This document shows, piece by piece, positions 7,961 through 24,417 of a DNA stretch of 25,621 nt. Position 1 is the stretch's first letter; every line of letters starts with the position of its first letter. Location of the stretch: positions 1 to 25,621 of IMG/VR virus record IMGVR_UViG_3300025449_000048. One strand, written 5' to 3'. The notes beneath the pieces were generated by a model. The model did no database searches. It saw only the letters and a list, made by a program, of their open reading frames with translations, and was not told where the DNA came from. A program made the position numbers and the translations under genes. This DNA comes from a virus.

Positions 7961-8190
7961 TATAAAGTGAGCCCGTTCTGTTTCGAGGTGGAACTCATAC
8001 CCAAGAGATTAAGCCGCTAGGCGCATCTCAAGAAGTGAATTATCGTTTGCAGATAATTTTATCTTACGTTAACGTAGTTTGCACACGATGTCTAAAAAAA
8101 TACTCCATACCATGTCGATCCCTTTCATCCCCGTATAAATTGGTGGAGATGTCGGCATCCGAGAGCCGAGTCCATAGCTATTTTGTATAT
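7961..8190 (-). ncRNA. ssrA: Circularly permuted (two-piece) tmRNA, tag ANDNSLLEMRLAA
   Basis: The acceptor piece comes first: T-arm-like TCGGC/GCCGA, then CATCTCC-A-CCA ending at 8141. After only 8 nt the coding piece begins with GGGGATG (8132-8126). GGGGATG pairs with CATCTCC (one G-U) to make the 7-bp acceptor stem. It is followed by GGGATCGACATGG, the tmRNA D-domain pattern. A P2-like helix joins CATGG (8114-8110) to CTATG (8177-8173), with TATTTT/AAAATA beyond it. The resume codon GCA at 8050 opens a 13-codon tag ending Leu-Ala-Ala-TAA (8011-8009), with GAGAT/ATCTC around the stop as in helix P5. A further stem TGAGTTC/GAAC..CTCA closes the 3' part. tmRNA rescues stalled ribosomes and tags nascent proteins. 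The T-loop has 8 nt (TCTCGGAT), not the usual 7. The outer ends are approximate. Confidence 0.9.
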
Positions 8191-8193
8191 TTT

Positions 8194-8745
8194 CTAATAA
8201 TTATCAGCCGACATTTTCTGATAATAACCTGTTAATCTTCTTTGCTCTTCTCTTTTTATTGAAGCAATTTTTATTTTTTCTTTATGCTCATTAGTAAGAC
8301 CATTTTTTTTCCTATTTTCATTTGCTTTTTTAGACATTTCAATAGTTCTTGGATCATCTTTAGCAAACGAAGATTTACCCCAATTTGGATGTAATTTACC
8401 TGTAGAGTTCATTGCACCTTTTTTTGATCGCTCTTTATGTGCTTTACTGCCATCATTTAAATGCGCAAATCCTCCGTGTCCACCTTCATGCATGTTATAA
8501 GACATATTAGTATTGATAGCTTGTTTTGTTACTAATGTTTTCTCTAAATTAGCGGCTTCATCATTAGTATCAAAAATTTGTAATATTTCTTTAATAAAAT
8601 TATCTACACCATATTTGACAATAGCAGCTTTAATTAGTTTACCACTACCCATGTAAGAATCATTAAGCGGCGACATATGCTTGCGTTTACCTATATACCA
8701 TTTACTGTTTATTTTATTTGTAATTTTATATACATAATAAGCCAT
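8194..8745 (-). CDS. GIY-YIG homing endonuclease
   Basis: 183 residues. The GIY-YIG module is at the N-terminus: YYVYKITN (residues 3-10), WYIGKR (16-21), YMGSGKLIKAAIVKYG, and LEKTLV with the likely catalytic Glu. The C-terminal part carries NWGKSS, then KKANENRKKNGLTNEHKEKIK, a NUMOD3-like DNA-binding helix pattern. Such free-standing enzymes cut intronless alleles and spread by repair. The stop codon lies only a few nt before the tmRNA acceptor piece, so the tmRNA region is the likely home site. A T4-type late promoter sequence lies 20 nt upstream, and AAGGA precedes the ATG. Confidence 0.88.
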   Translation of the reverse strand: MAYYVYKITNKINSKWYIGKRKHMSPLNDSYMGSGKLIKAAIVKYGVDNFIKEILQIFDTNDEAANLEKTLVTKQAINTNMSYNMHEGGHGGFAHLNDGSKAHKERSKKGAMNSTGKLHPNWGKSSFAKDDPRTIEMSKKANENRKKNGLTNEHKEKIKIASIKREEQRRLTGYYQKMSADNY

Positions 8746-8764
8746 AAAGATGTCCTTTTTAACT

Positions 8765-8772
8765 TATTTATA
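8765..8772 (-). promoter_or_regulatory. T4-type late promoter box for the homing endonuclease
   Basis: TATAAATA on the minus strand, identical to the T4 late -10 consensus, about 20 nt before the ATG at 8745. It fits the presence of a gp33 homologue. There is no -35 requirement in this promoter class. Confidence 0.6.
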
Positions 8773-8784
8773 TAAAATTAATTT

Positions 8785-8815
8785 TGAGGCGGCGGGTACC
8801 GCCCCCGCGTCCTCA
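8785..8815 (-). other. GC-rich hairpin upstream of the homing endonuclease
   Basis: TGAGG/CCTCA (outer 5 bp) and GCGGG/CCCGC (inner 5 bp) separated by a 2x2 internal loop, with a 7-nt loop. The stem sequence closely resembles the T-arm and acceptor end of bacterial tmRNA, but the loop is not a T-loop and no CCA follows. It lies between the early promoter (8858-8885) and the late box. It may block early readthrough, or be a fragment of an older tmRNA copy. Confidence 0.55.
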
Positions 8816-8857
8816 GTGTCTATTCCACTAGATGTCATCAACATCAGCAATATATTT

Positions 8858-8885
8858 ATTATACCTTATTAGAGAGAAAAGTCAA
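8858..8885 (-). promoter_or_regulatory. Promoter for the RNA island
   Basis: TTGACT (8885-8880), 16-nt spacer ending GG, TATAAT (8863-8858). A near-consensus sigma70 promoter. The -35 box overlaps the stop codon of the gene ending at 8882. It would transcribe the hairpin, the endonuclease, the tmRNA and onward. Confidence 0.8.
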
Positions 8886-15666: not shown

Positions 15667-15933
15667 CTAAATTTCTTTCAACTTAAATTGCTGACCGCCA
15701 AATTTGTCGCTTTCGCGAACGAAGAGAATTGTGTCGCCGTCAATGACAATCGTGTACAAATCCTCGCCGATATAAATGTCGGAGTCGCTTTCCCCGAAGG
15801 AAACTTCCTCGGCAATCAATGGCTTTTTAGTTTCGCAGTTCCCGAATGCGTACCAGTCTTCATTACGGAACGGGCGAAATTGGGCTTTCGCGAGCAGAAC
15901 GAGGGCTTCAGCGCGGGATAAATCGGTTTCCAT
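15667..15933 (-). CDS. DWYAF-family small protein, copy 1
   Basis: 88 residues from the ATG at 15933, with GGAG 6 nt upstream; that GGAG is inside the first possible ATG codon context at 15945. The core EALVLLAKAQFRPFRNEDWY then AFGNCET, two short linkers and IVIDGDTILFV strands matches the protein at 23130-23345. The two are paralogues. Mixed alpha/beta fold, no catalytic motif seen. Confidence 0.75.
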   Translation of the reverse strand: METDLSRAEALVLLAKAQFRPFRNEDWYAFGNCETKKPLIAEEVSFGESDSDIYIGEDLYTIVIDGDTILFVRESDKFGGQQFKLKEI

Positions 15934-15960
15934 CAAACTCTCCATTTCAACTTATAATTA

Positions 15961-15988
15961 AATATACCGCATTTTCGGGAAAAGTCAA
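15961..15988 (-). promoter_or_regulatory. Promoter for DWYAF copy 1
   Basis: TTGACT (15988-15983), 16-nt spacer ending GCGG, TATATT (15966-15961). It is divergent from the plus-strand promoter at 16033, leaving about 44 nt between the two -35 boxes. Confidence 0.72.
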
Positions 15989-16032
15989 GCGATATCTCAT
16001 CGAAAAAAGATTTAATTTCGCAAAGATTCTTG

Positions 16033-16060
16033 TTGACTTTTGGGGGATATACGGTATATT
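16033..16060 (+). promoter_or_regulatory. Plus-strand promoter 1 of the gene-free locus
   Basis: TTGACT (16033-16038), 16-nt spacer ending ACGG, TATATT (16055-16060). It faces into a stretch without ORFs. Confidence 0.7.
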
Positions 16061-16062
16061 AA

Positions 16063-16150
16063 TAAGTGATTCCCCGATTAGAGCGGGTAGAAGAGATTCT
16101 AAGTGCACCCGAACTTTTGATGGGTAACGGAATCCGCAGCGGAAACCCAA
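16063..16150 (+). ncRNA. Candidate structured RNA between two plus promoters
   Basis: Downstream of the first promoter, two hairpins can form. CGGGT (16084-16088) pairs with ACCCG (16107-16111) around an inner AGAA/TTCT stem. TGGGT (16121-16125) pairs with ACCCA (16145-16149) around TCCG/CGGA (in TCCGCAGCGGA). No start codon with a binding site is present. No known RNA family recognised. Confidence 0.45.
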
Positions 16151-16159
16151 AATGAGGGG

Positions 16160-16188
16160 TTGACTTTTTGATTCGTTGGGGGTATACT
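16160..16188 (+). promoter_or_regulatory. Plus-strand promoter 2 of the gene-free locus
   Basis: TTGACT (16160-16165), 17-nt spacer ending GGGGG, TATACT (16183-16188). Confidence 0.7.
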
Positions 16189-16194
16189 TATATT

Positions 16195-16390
16195 TGGTTG
16201 TCAGAAACTATCCGCGAAGCATCGATGTATAGTTTAATGTGTAGCACAGTATAGAATAGTATAGCACAGTAGTAATAGTGCGATGACGCAAAGTAACACG
16301 ATGTAGAGCACAAGCATCGACACCGATCGACGAGCATCGACACCGCATCTACCTCGTTTTCGTCGATTTATGACGATCAAACAACGCTCA
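16195..16390 (+). ncRNA. Candidate second RNA or repeat-rich non-coding stretch
   Basis: No ORF of useful length on either strand. AAACTAT/ATAGTTT makes a 7-bp hairpin (about 16206-16236) enclosing the palindrome CATCGATG. TAGCACAGTA occurs twice (near 16241 and 16263). AGCATCGACACCG occurs twice (near 16312 and 16334), with further CGTCGAT/CGATC variants. It could be a non-coding RNA or a binding-site array. The plus-strand end is not defined by a U-run. Confidence 0.35.
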
Positions 16391-16394
16391 CATT

Positions 16395-16420
16395 AAAAAA
16401 AGAGGGATTTAAATCCCCCT
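16395..16420 (-). terminator. Terminator at the end of the 18143-16489 gene run
   Basis: Perfect palindrome GGGATTTAAATCCC (16404-16417). On the minus strand it is followed by TC and seven U. It lies 70 nt beyond the stop of the last minus gene, and also marks the right border of the ORF-less locus. Confidence 0.75.
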
Positions 16421-16488
16421 ATAAATCCCCCACATTTTAGTGAATACCACGACGAAACACTCCGTTACTAGGGGAAAACACTATTGTG

Positions 16489-16710
16489 TTATGCTCCAGT
16501 AGTAATGTATTGATCCCATTCTTCTACTGTCATACCAGTCTTAATAAACTCTCTTGCATTGGCAGAGGTATCTTCGAATGCATCTTGTAGTAGTATTTTA
16601 CCTTCTCTCCATAGAATATACCTATTATCGAATTCTTCCTGTGTATACTGAGGTATTTCCATAGTCCTTACTACTCCAGAGATCATTGACTTTTTTGTTA
16701 CTCTCGCCAT
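16489..16710 (-). CDS. Hypothetical protein, 73 aa
   Basis: MARVTKKSMISGVVRTMEIP... with a basic start and an acidic second half (FIKTGMTVEEWDQYITTGA). The start overlaps the stop of the Thr/Pro-rich gene (TAATG). Last gene before the terminator. Confidence 0.7.
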   Translation of the reverse strand: MARVTKKSMISGVVRTMEIPQYTQEEFDNRYILWREGKILLQDAFEDTSANAREFIKTGMTVEEWDQYITTGA

Positions 16711-19047: not shown

Positions 19048-19076
19048 TTGACTTTTATTATCTTTCATAGTTTAAT
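19048..19076 (+). promoter_or_regulatory. Promoter for the coiled-coil membrane protein
   Basis: TTGACT (19048-19053), 17-nt spacer, TTTAAT (19071-19076). About 34 nt from the opposing -35 box. Confidence 0.7.
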
Positions 19077-19095: not shown

Positions 19096-19596
19096 ATGAT
19101 TCCATTAGATCCAGATAAAGCTGCAAAACTCGGCGAGTCTTACGGTAAAGGCGTAACAGATGCAGTATTCGGCATCGTAGATGTAGTAAGAAATGCTCCT
19201 GCACAAAAAGATGCTAATAACAAAAAGATATTAGCACAGAATAGAATCACTGAAATTAATAATCAAATCGTCCGTAATAATAATACATTACGCGAACAAG
19301 CAATGCGCGAGATCGCGGCTGAACAAGAAGCCCAAATGATTGCTCGTATGAGCCCAGCCCAGCGTCAGGAATTCTATAAAGCAAGAGCAGAGGCTGCAAA
19401 GGAAGCGCATAGATTAAGAGTACAAGCAGAAAGAAAAAGAGAAGAGATGTGGGAACTATTCTGGGCTCTATTCTGTATCTTTATAGTATTACCTACTTTT
19501 GTTTGGATTGGACTTATCATATGGGGTGTTTCCGACTATATCGCATGTCATTCTATGCGAAGCTTCATCCCCCTTATGTCCTCCATCTGTAATTAA
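19096..19596 (+). CDS. Coiled-coil protein with C-terminal membrane anchor
   Basis: 166 residues. Residues 1-35 include a Gly/Val segment, 40-115 a long charged Gln/Arg/Ala coiled coil, and 117-147 a hydrophobic segment (LFWALFCIFIVLPTFVWIGL then IIWGVSDYIA). The tail has two Cys. The coil would be cytoplasmic and anchored to the inner membrane. It is the only plus-strand gene inside a long minus block, has its own promoter and AGGAG, and its stop overlaps the opposing gene. Membrane-linked exclusion or lysis timing is possible but unsupported. Confidence 0.75.
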   Translation: MIPLDPDKAAKLGESYGKGVTDAVFGIVDVVRNAPAQKDANNKKILAQNRITEINNQIVRNNNTLREQAMREIAAEQEAQMIARMSPAQRQEFYKARAEAAKEAHRLRVQAERKREEMWELFWALFCIFIVLPTFVWIGLIIWGVSDYIACHSMRSFIPLMSSICN

Positions 19597-19811
19597 GCAG
19601 ACAATAACAACCCATCAACAACATCGTCCTTCGATATAATACGGAATTTAAACTTCCGTTCGCCTGTCGATAAACAAAATGAATCATCACCGACCCACTT
19701 CGGACGAGGAACTACTGTCCCTGTATATGTGTTAGTCTCTGGGATATACGAGCCATAGAGTGCTCGTTTTTCCCAGAGACTATTCTTAACTCTTACAGTT
19801 ATTTGCAACAT
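19593..19811 (-). CDS. Hypothetical beta-rich protein, 72 aa
   Basis: From the ATG at 19811 (MLQITVRVKNSLWEKRALYG) with GAGG upstream, overlapping the end of the AAA ATPase gene by 13 nt. The alternation of hydrophobic and charged residues suggests a small beta barrel. Function unknown. Translation is probably coupled to the ATPase. Confidence 0.7.
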   Translation of the reverse strand: MLQITVRVKNSLWEKRALYGSYIPETNTYTGTVVPRPKWVGDDSFCLSTGERKFKFRIISKDDVVDGLLLSA

Positions 19812-20653
19812 GTAATCCTCGCAATCTTTTCCCAATTCTTATTGCTCTTACGAATGTTACCAACCTTAAGAGCCATACGCAGCGACAATTCGCGAAGCTG
19901 TGGATGATTCTTCTCAATGAAAGCAATGACGTCATTACGCTCATCGGTCTTAAGATCAGAAAGCAACCCCTGCTTAATTACCTGACGAATACGGATCAGA
20001 TAATCGCGCCGAGTGTGCATAGCCAAATCAATATAGTGGCTACGGGAAACCAACGCCTGAAGATGCGGAGCCAGCTTATGACCGCGATCAATCATGGCAT
20101 CGAAGTCATAGTTCGTGATGAAGATGATAGTACCGTTGAAGTCAAACGTGCGTGGAATACGCTCGGCTGACTCTTCATCAATAAGAGCGCCCTCGGACAA
20201 CCAAGAAACGCGACGACGTTCGGTTGTATCGCAAACTGCCTTAAGAAGGTTAAGAGAAATATCGTCGAAGAAAATCGCATCGGCGTCATCGAATACAATG
20301 ACCTGACCATCTTCGCGATACTGATAAAGCATTTTGACCAAGCCAGTAGCGCGGACATAACCCTTAACGACCGTATGATTGATAGCATTAGGATCCCAGT
20401 GATTGAGCGCAGCCTCGACCGTGTGAGACTTACCGAGGCCAGCGGGACCAGAAACGATAAGCGCACGGGCATTACCGACGATACAAGCCTCGGTCAATAC
20501 CTCGAGAATGTCGAAACGCTCAGCCAAACGAGCCTCGACTTCTGCGTCGGTCTCATTGGACTGTACATCATAATTGACTTTTATAGCTGACATCTTTTCA
20601 GCAACGGAAGTACGCTTCGCACGGAAGCCAGCCTTGGGAACACCTCTCGCCAT
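19799..20653 (-). CDS. AAA-type ATPase
   Basis: 284 residues. Walker A GPAGLGKS (69-76), Walker B VIVFDDAD (118-125), sensor-1-like TIIFITNYD with Asn181, followed by an Arg-rich SHYIDLAMHTRRDYLIRIRQ segment and a helical lid. The N-terminal 45 residues are basic then acidic. It is shorter than most helicases and resembles stand-alone AAA proteins of T4-type phages whose partner is unknown (a loader or remodelling factor). The sequence is clearly more GC-rich than neighbouring genes. AGAGG precedes the ATG. Confidence 0.85.
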   Translation of the reverse strand: MARGVPKAGFRAKRTSVAEKMSAIKVNYDVQSNETDAEVEARLAERFDILEVLTEACIVGNARALIVSGPAGLGKSHTVEAALNHWDPNAINHTVVKGYVRATGLVKMLYQYREDGQVIVFDDADAIFFDDISLNLLKAVCDTTERRRVSWLSEGALIDEESAERIPRTFDFNGTIIFITNYDFDAMIDRGHKLAPHLQALVSRSHYIDLAMHTRRDYLIRIRQVIKQGLLSDLKTDERNDVIAFIEKNHPQLRELSLRMALKVGNIRKSNKNWEKIARITCCK

Positions 20654-21764: not shown

Positions 21765-21793
21765 ATTCTACCATACTTTTAAGAAAAAGTCAA
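21765..21793 (-). promoter_or_regulatory. Promoter for the 60-aa / 93-aa pair
   Basis: TTGACT (21793-21788), 17-nt spacer ending GG, TAGAAT (21770-21765), leader TCTATGGTTGAAAAAGGAAA. Confidence 0.75.
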
Positions 21794-21978
21794 GCAGTAT
21801 GTATCACGTATCCAGCATGATCCTGCAATCCCTGCATCAGATCAATATAGTCATTACTCATTGTACGAGTTTCCTCGGGGCCATCGCTGAATTGATATTC
21901 GGGCTGACCTAATACCGCACCCTCATATAAAGTTTCATCCGTCACTTCGCCTACGATTAACCAAACTTCTTTGAACAT
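21790..21978 (-). CDS. Small acidic protein, 62 aa
   Basis: From the ATG at 21978 (MFKEVWLIVGEVTDETLYEG), with AGGAAA 9 nt upstream. Third gene of a three-gene run. Its stop is inside the -35 region of the next promoter. Function unknown. Confidence 0.7.
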   Translation of the reverse strand: MFKEVWLIVGEVTDETLYEGAVLGQPEYQFSDGPEETRTMSNDYIDLMQGLQDHAGYVIHTA

Positions 21979-21980
21979 GT

Positions 21981-22103
21981 TCAATTTCCTAGTGGACGGT
22001 AAACTTCATTGGCAGAGTCATAATAGACCTCGATGTTATCGATATAAATTCGACCCGTATCGATATCATATTGAACGACAGTATTCCATTCCCAAACAGT
22101 CAT
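21981..22103 (-). CDS. 40-aa protein
   Basis: MTVWEWNTVVQYDIDTGRIY followed by IDNIEVYYDSANEVYRPLGN, a likely small beta sheet. It starts 1 nt after the upstream stop, with AAGGAG in that gene's last codons. Function unknown. Confidence 0.68.
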   Translation of the reverse strand: MTVWEWNTVVQYDIDTGRIYIDNIEVYYDSANEVYRPLGN

Positions 22104-22104
22104 A

Positions 22105-22320
22105 TCAGTTGGCTCCTTCGAAATAACGAACATCGGCATCAGTAGTCCATGGATCCTGCGTGCGCCGCTCGAGTTCAGCCTCGAATTCAGCCGCGAGATA
22201 AGCTGCACGACGAGCGGCATTGTGATCGGGGAAAACCTTGGTATAGTACGAAACATCGGCGAGGACGGCTGCAAGATCAGCCTGCAAATCTTCGGTGGGG
22301 AACGAGGCGAGATAATTCAT
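22105..22320 (-). CDS. Small helical protein, 71 aa
   Basis: From the ATG at 22320 (MNYLASFPTEDLQADLAAVL), with AAAGGAA upstream; the ATG at 22341 is in the leader. It continues YYTKVFPDHNAARRAAYLAA EFEAELERRT, a charged amphipathic helix. No family recognised. Confidence 0.72.
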   Translation of the reverse strand: MNYLASFPTEDLQADLAAVLADVSYYTKVFPDHNAARRAAYLAAEFEAELERRTQDPWTTDADVRYFEGAN

Positions 22321-23129: not shown

Positions 23130-23345
23130 TCAGTTAGTTATCAATTTAAGAATATTAACAGATTCACCTTCATCGTCGATGAAATCGATAGTATTTCCGT
23201 CAATAATAATAGTAAGACCGAGGTCTTCATCATAGGCTATTTTTGGATCAGCTGTTTCACACCCACTGAATGCATACCAGTCGGCGTCTGTAAATGGCTT
23301 AAATTCCGATGCAGCGATCAATCCTAATGCTTCGACCAGAGTCAT
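23130..23345 (-). CDS. DWYAF-family small protein, copy 2
   Basis: 71 residues from the ATG at 23345 (MTLVEALGLIAASEFKPFTD), with GGAAAAAG upstream; the ATGs at 23366/23363 lie too near the -10 box. ADWYAFSGCETADPKIAYDE and IIIDGNTIDFID match copy 1 at 15667-15933 in order and spacing. The middle loop is shorter. Confidence 0.75.
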   Translation of the reverse strand: MTLVEALGLIAASEFKPFTDADWYAFSGCETADPKIAYDEDLGLTIIIDGNTIDFIDDEGESVNILKLITN

Positions 23346-23372
23346 CTCTTTTTCCTTTTCCATCATATTACC

Positions 23373-24156: not shown

Positions 24157-24184
24157 TTGACTTCCTCGGCCATTACGGTATAAT
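24157..24184 (+). promoter_or_regulatory. Promoter for the right-hand plus-strand gene set
   Basis: AAGTGTTGACT with TTGACT at 24157-24162, 16-nt spacer ending ACGG, TATAAT (24179-24184). Confidence 0.82.
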
Positions 24185-24214: not shown

Positions 24215-24325
24215 ATGTCCAGAAGTGTCTATGCCAAAGAGTTGTCGTCGCGGAAATATGCTCAGCGTATTGTTCGGCCGAAGAAGGGGAAAGGGTCGTA
24301 TACCCGTAAGAGTAAGAGCAAATGA
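24215..24325 (+). CDS. 36-aa highly basic protein
   Basis: MSRSVYAKELSSRKYAQRIV then RPKKGKGSYTRKSKSK: 14 of 36 residues are Lys or Arg. GGAAAGGA lies 6 nt before the ATG, about 30 nt after the -10 box. The pattern resembles ribosomal or nucleic-acid-binding tails. Its stop overlaps the next start. Function unknown. Confidence 0.72.
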   Translation: MSRSVYAKELSSRKYAQRIVRPKKGKGSYTRKSKSK

Positions 24326-24417
24326 TGTTCATACTCGGTTTCCTATTCGGAGCAGCGACCTCCGTTGCTTTTTGTGTTTTTCTTTGGATATATATCAAAG
24401 GTGTTGACTTTTTATAA
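24322..24417 (+). CDS. 31-aa single-pass membrane peptide
   Basis: MMFILGFLFGAATSVAFCVF then LWIYIKGVDFL: one hydrophobic helix through most of its length. The first ATG overlaps the stop of the basic peptide (ATGA). Its last codons encode the -35 box of the next promoter, so coding and promoter functions share DNA. Confidence 0.68.
   Translation: MMFILGFLFGAATSVAFCVFLWIYIKGVDFL

Follow-up and report, generated by a model that had tools for sequence, protein, structure and literature searches.

A short stretch facing backward amid the early genes of an uncultivated T4-like phage is probably transcribed early in infection, as judged from its promoters, and it runs into a block of about 45 nt that is a previously unrecorded sequence. 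According to a sequence-only model, 18 of 49 related records carry the block, each in exactly one copy (Table 1); a nineteenth match, at E 0.1, was left out of this count. A replication start site and a noncoding RNA are our leading guesses for the role of the element. Under either reading, a phage element left blank by gene-based annotation is now visible and testable. Should it prove to be an origin, replication starts across a large group of uncultivated T4-like phages could be recognised by a sequence signature; the origins of T4 itself have no motif in common (PMC3016281). Should it prove to be an RNA, it would be an early noncoding product with a searchable motif.

The window, by which we mean the whole stretch of DNA analysed, is an IMG/VR viral fragment complete at 25,621 bases. 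It encodes T4-type proteins, including gp32 single-strand binding protein, gp59 helicase loader, DNA end protector, tail tube and baseplate hub, as well as a permuted tmRNA of the alphaproteobacterial type, and the isolates matched by its proteins include Caulobacter phage Cr30 and Sinorhizobium phages phiM12 and phiN3. INPHARED contained no nucleotide match to the window, nor to the locus itself by blastn. In IMG/VR, an 18-mer from RNA1 was found only in one near-identical contig, and an exact 16-mer from RNA2 was found in 21 stretches, among which only that contig shares other sequence with the window. Protein searches with the two flanking genes likewise returned only the near-identical contig or phages with distant homologues. 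A search with the NrdC.10-like ATPase (19799-20653) gathered 72 related phages.

Table 1. Features of the backward-facing unit and its flanks, in window coordinates
Feature	Position	Strand	Details
Divergent small early gene	15667..15945	-	92 aa; unassigned function
Early promoter of the divergent gene	15961..15988	-	matrix score 26.6, rank 12
Early promoter P1	16033..16060	+	TTGACT-16-TATATT; held-out matrix 28.9 bits, rank 8 in window
RNA1 segment (P1-only transcript)	16066..16159	+	start inferred from -10 box; no ORF with ribosome site; fold z about -1.4
Possible leaderless GTG frame	16066..16155	+	29 aa, VIPRLERVEEILSAPELLMGNGIRSGNPK; GTG at expected transcription start
Weak terminator-like hairpin between P1 and P2	16144..16161	+	
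Early promoter P2	16160..16188	+	TTGACT-17-TATACT; held-out matrix 30.0 bits, rank 5 in window
RNA2 (ORF-less spacer from P2)	16195..16365	+	differs between relatives
10-nt tandem array	16242..16271	+	3 units of TAGCACAGTA, 80% matches
10-nt tandem array	16316..16345	+	3 units of ATCGACACCG, 72% matches
Conserved block	16366..16427	+	consensus GACCnAAcAACGCnTnnATTTCTAAAACGGGATTTAAATCCCC; E 3e-18 to 6e-4 in 18/49 related records
Intrinsic-terminator-like hairpin	16401..16420	-	closes convergent minus operon; overlaps block
Convergent small early gene	16489..16710	-	73 aa; phrog_20898; adjoins block in several relatives

The original prediction placed two strong plus-strand promoters of the early-gene class at this locus, and both stood up to scoring with a two-block matrix for which 22 other window promoters, and neither P1 nor P2, served as the training set. 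Their ranks (eighth and fifth) corresponded to scores far above the maximum of 18.4 bits reached when the window was Markov-shuffled 20 times. Almost every other promoter of this class has a ribosome site and an ORF within about 25-45 nt behind it; those that do not are P1, P2 and a promoter at 8885 (-) that reads into the region of the tmRNA gene. The sole other plus-strand promoter between 9 and 24 kb is at 19048 (15.6 bits), before the plus-strand gene 19096-19596. Early transcription of the ORF-less stretch, as the original prediction had proposed, is well supported at the level of sequence by these promoters and by the same layout in relatives; host-factor binding by the RNAs, which it also suggested, is a hypothetical role. 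The predicted transcript length of about 350 nt is unproven, as neither RNA1 nor RNA2 has a clear plus-strand intrinsic terminator and the only candidate is the weak hairpin between the promoters.

We found no credible ORF behind either promoter, in line with the earlier reading. The longest frames are 29 aa (GTG at 16066) and 28 aa (TTG at 16168, within P2), and no frame of at least 10 aa behind P1 or P2 is preceded by a convincing ribosome site. Alphaproteobacteria commonly have leaderless mRNAs, and the GTG sits at the expected +1, such that the P1 transcript could begin at this codon and encode a leaderless micropeptide of 29 aa. We consider this very improbable, however: a frame of 29 codons can readily arise by chance, no homologue was seen, an equivalent frame was not recognised in relatives and there is nothing comparable behind P2. 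With just two differences across the locus, the near-identical contig is uninformative overall; its one change in this frame, A16138T, is a replacement that would turn Ser25 into Cys, which also counts against the micropeptide.

The hairpins and repeats described earlier for the two RNAs were also compared with predicted folds. The CGGGT/ACCCG stem is present in the predicted fold of RNA1, the TGGGT/ACCCA stem falls outside its minimum-energy fold, and RNA2 contains AAACTAT/ATAGTTT. RNA1 was no more stable than shuffled sequences (z -1.3 to -1.45), and RNA2 was modestly more stable (z -2.2; 5 of 200 shuffles as good). The repeats are real, consisting of exact pairs of TAGCACAGTA (16242 and 16262) and AGCATCGACACCG (16313 and 16333), the copies of each lying 20 nt apart. 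No Rfam covariance model reached its gathering threshold over 15900-16500, and at permissive thresholds matches in this interval were at chance level only. Two further candidate features were dropped: the clustering of GANTC (CcrM-type) sites, five in 155 bp, was not significant window-wide (p 0.13), and a vague similarity by eye between the RNA1 5' end and a type I-E CRISPR repeat was set aside, the stem being weak.

The block emerged from comparison with relatives. A first profile search with the locus revealed weak similarity to its 3' end in several relatives, always in the same relative orientation, and a profile of five sequences then found further lineages out of sample. Lineages recovered outside the then-current seed were L097 (2.6e-7), L072 (1.3e-5), L071 (3.6e-5), L112 (1.8e-4) and L131 (1.1e-13). 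A strict DNA pattern of the block matched eight IMG/VR stretches, all from this clade and including one new contig, and none of 84,980 GTDB species genomes; the consensus had no blastn match in INPHARED, and the block is absent from Rfam. When 80 loci around the phrog_20898 gene family were searched, the block was found in the known clade only. This family is itself common in phages far outside the clade; it has a conserved tail (REFIKTGMT..EWD) and a weak HTH_ParB match below the cut-off.

We also considered what kind of sequence the block might be. A coding motif (frame TTxxFLKRD in several lineages) was rejected, as third codon positions show, by eye, as much conservation in the alignment as first and second ones, and the frame is broken by stops in L062, L073, L129 and L060. 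A structured terminator was rejected as well, there being no consensus hairpin; the T-run hairpin at the block belongs to the minus strand and does not form an intrinsic terminator for the plus transcript. Covariation in relatives, named in the original prediction as a check on its noncoding RNAs, lent no support: RNAalifold predicted no pair in the block across 13 sequences, and spacers from different lineages do not align.

The same layout, a lone plus-strand unit within minus-strand early genes, recurs in about a dozen uncultivated T4-like phage lineages. In all of these loci the block closes the unit and the upstream neighbours are on the minus strand. Of the 15 loci examined, 12 also have minus-strand genes downstream; in the other three, the block is followed by a plus-strand gene (L065), no called ORF (L060) or a contig end (L010). 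With the window excluded, early promoters on the block's own strand were enriched among relatives in the 400 nt upstream of it (Fisher p 7e-6). Good promoters are present in the ORF-less loci L062, L073 and L112, whereas L071 and L072 have only a diverged promoter, seen by eye, and L010/G003 and L129 have no convincing plus-strand promoter by matrix. The divergent gene beside the unit has a paralogue in the window at 23130-23366 (-), the two small early genes sharing the motif KPF/RPF...DWYAF, and in L010 the divergent neighbour of the unit is a further relative.

The content of the unit varies across lineages. Eight loci have an ORF-less spacer (the window, L076, L062, L073, L071, L072, L112 and L060), while in L093, L097, L098/L131, L129 and L065 the slot holds an ORF of 58-70 aa and a short noncoding stretch. 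These ORFs had no Pfam match. One interpretation is that the unit is a slot for accessory genes, where small early plus-strand genes come and go before a shared 3' end or convergent-junction element, and that the window's clade has lost its gene, leaving promoters that fire into spacer. That four different ORFs (L093, L097, L098/L131 and L129), and another in L065, all have the block behind them fits this interpretation, as does the overlap of the minus-strand terminator with the block. We nevertheless judge it unlikely. In the ATPase tree, the eight ORF-less loci group together (support 94/88), which indicates that the ORF-less form did not arise by recent loss; the group also includes three block-less records, perhaps fragments. 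Strong promoters persist in several members of this clade of some depth, being near-consensus in the window itself, and the block is single-copy and not a structured terminator.

Alternatively, P1 and/or P2 could produce one or two trans-acting early noncoding RNAs that end near the block, fold into hairpins and bind an mRNA or a factor from host or phage, with the block serving as a single-stranded 3' recognition motif. The lack of an ORF in the window's unit is consistent with this, and the genome's other ORF-less early promoter leads into the region of a known RNA gene, that of the tmRNA. Folding offers some further support, from the stability of RNA2 and a mean plus-strand z of -1.9 over twelve units, and a hairpin of about 25 pairs lies directly before the block in L129 (L129:5922-6070, minus strand; z -5.1), with long hairpins in the same place in L093 and L097. 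However, the reverse strands fold almost equally well (mean z -1.7), which suggests inverted repeats in the DNA. The relatives argue at the sequence level against a conserved folded RNA, as the spacer is not conserved, the block has no consensus fold and a small ORF occupies the slot in some lineages; in addition, no Rfam match exceeded gathering. We regard this explanation as somewhat unlikely. Among known phage noncoding RNAs, the two-piece tmRNA of phage Melnitz is phage-encoded (PMC9004378); as in that case, an early promoter of an aquatic T4-like phage would here drive a noncoding RNA unit, but the present locus has no family match, no conserved fold and no conserved product. A Rho site in the C- and A-rich spacers was rejected, since base composition is inconsistent between relatives.

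Overall, a promoter in most lineages, a constant direction, a single copy and a block that is kept while the product varies favour a cis-acting role of transcription. Our tentative preference, held with less than even confidence, is that the locus is a cis-acting element most like T4 oriE, where an early opposite-strand transcript serves as replication primer. The locus would then be a single-copy, counter-strand early transcription unit, at which host RNA polymerase, without any phage factor, would start from P1 and P2 as infection begins. Transcription would proceed rightwards, against the flanking early genes, through the repeat-bearing spacer and into the block. Near the block the transcript may stay paired or be cut, and could prime leading-strand DNA synthesis, with the block as a putative site for holding the transcript or loading the replisome.

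This preference for a cis-acting origin is consistent with strongest-class promoters that have no gene behind them, a layout common to about a dozen lineages, the promoter enrichment upstream of the block in relatives, a single-copy block conserved in sequence but without a consensus fold, the grouping of the ORF-less loci in the ATPase tree, and an enrichment of tandem repeats in the units (2.45 vs 0.66 arrays per kb, p 0.006). Several observations count against it. There was no clear change in GC skew at the block in long contigs, where gene direction and early/late class dominate the skew; the T4 oriE region contains no counterpart of the block (best E 0.054); no initiator protein was identified; and L010/G003 and L129 are without a convincing promoter. 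The tandem repeats are not conserved, occurring in only 4 of 14 units and differing between relatives in unit and sequence. The second option of the original prediction, a putative replication-related element, fits the overall pattern somewhat better than a conserved folded RNA does. The broader possibility of a new, clade-wide class of replication start, in which a strong early promoter fires against the early operon into the ~45-nt block without a conserved product or T4-type middle promoters, we consider doubtful.

T4 oriE, the closest precedent within this virus family, combines an early-mode promoter, an opposite-strand transcript, small ORFs and repeats near a strand switch (PMC3016281). 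Like this repEA/repEB region, the present locus has a predicted early-mode promoter directed against the neighbouring genes, and direct repeats nearby. Small ORFs that might parallel repEA and repEB occupy the unit in some relatives and in none of the window's clade. In contrast to oriE, conserved, evenly spaced repeats were not found in relatives here, and the neighbours are early genes, while oriE lies inside late gene 5. We note that the 24-nt direct repeats near the annotated oriE (L172:1403-1570, from T4 78000-84500) lie inside gene 5 and may represent a protein repeat of that gene rather than replication iterons; given this overlap, the likeness in repeats may mean little. Under the cis-acting reading, the locus would share with oriF and oriG, the transcript-primed R-loop origins of T4, that transcription and not the product matters, but those origins use MotA middle-mode promoters (PMC3016281), compared with host-type early promoters here.

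Elsewhere in the window, a GIY-YIG homing endonuclease ORF (8194-8745) seems to interrupt or displace the tmRNA gene (7966-8885, minus strand), and a tmRNA-acceptor-like hairpin lies near 8815, upstream of that ORF. The tmRNA scores here are 82.2 and 60.5 bits, compared with 93-105 and 111-137 bits in relatives without the GIY-YIG ORF. Permuted tmRNAs are already known in phages (PMC9004378). An early promoter at 24157 (+) drives a 36-aa ORF (24215-24325), followed by a terminator-like hairpin (24349-24371), that matches the alternative ribosome-rescue factor ArfA above the curated cut-off (PF03889, E 2.2e-7), so this phage encodes parts of two ribosome-rescue systems. Finally, about 520 bp between two repeated promoter regions (21793-22317) are missing from the near-identical contig, a pattern suggestive of an early gene lost by recombination between the promoter repeats.
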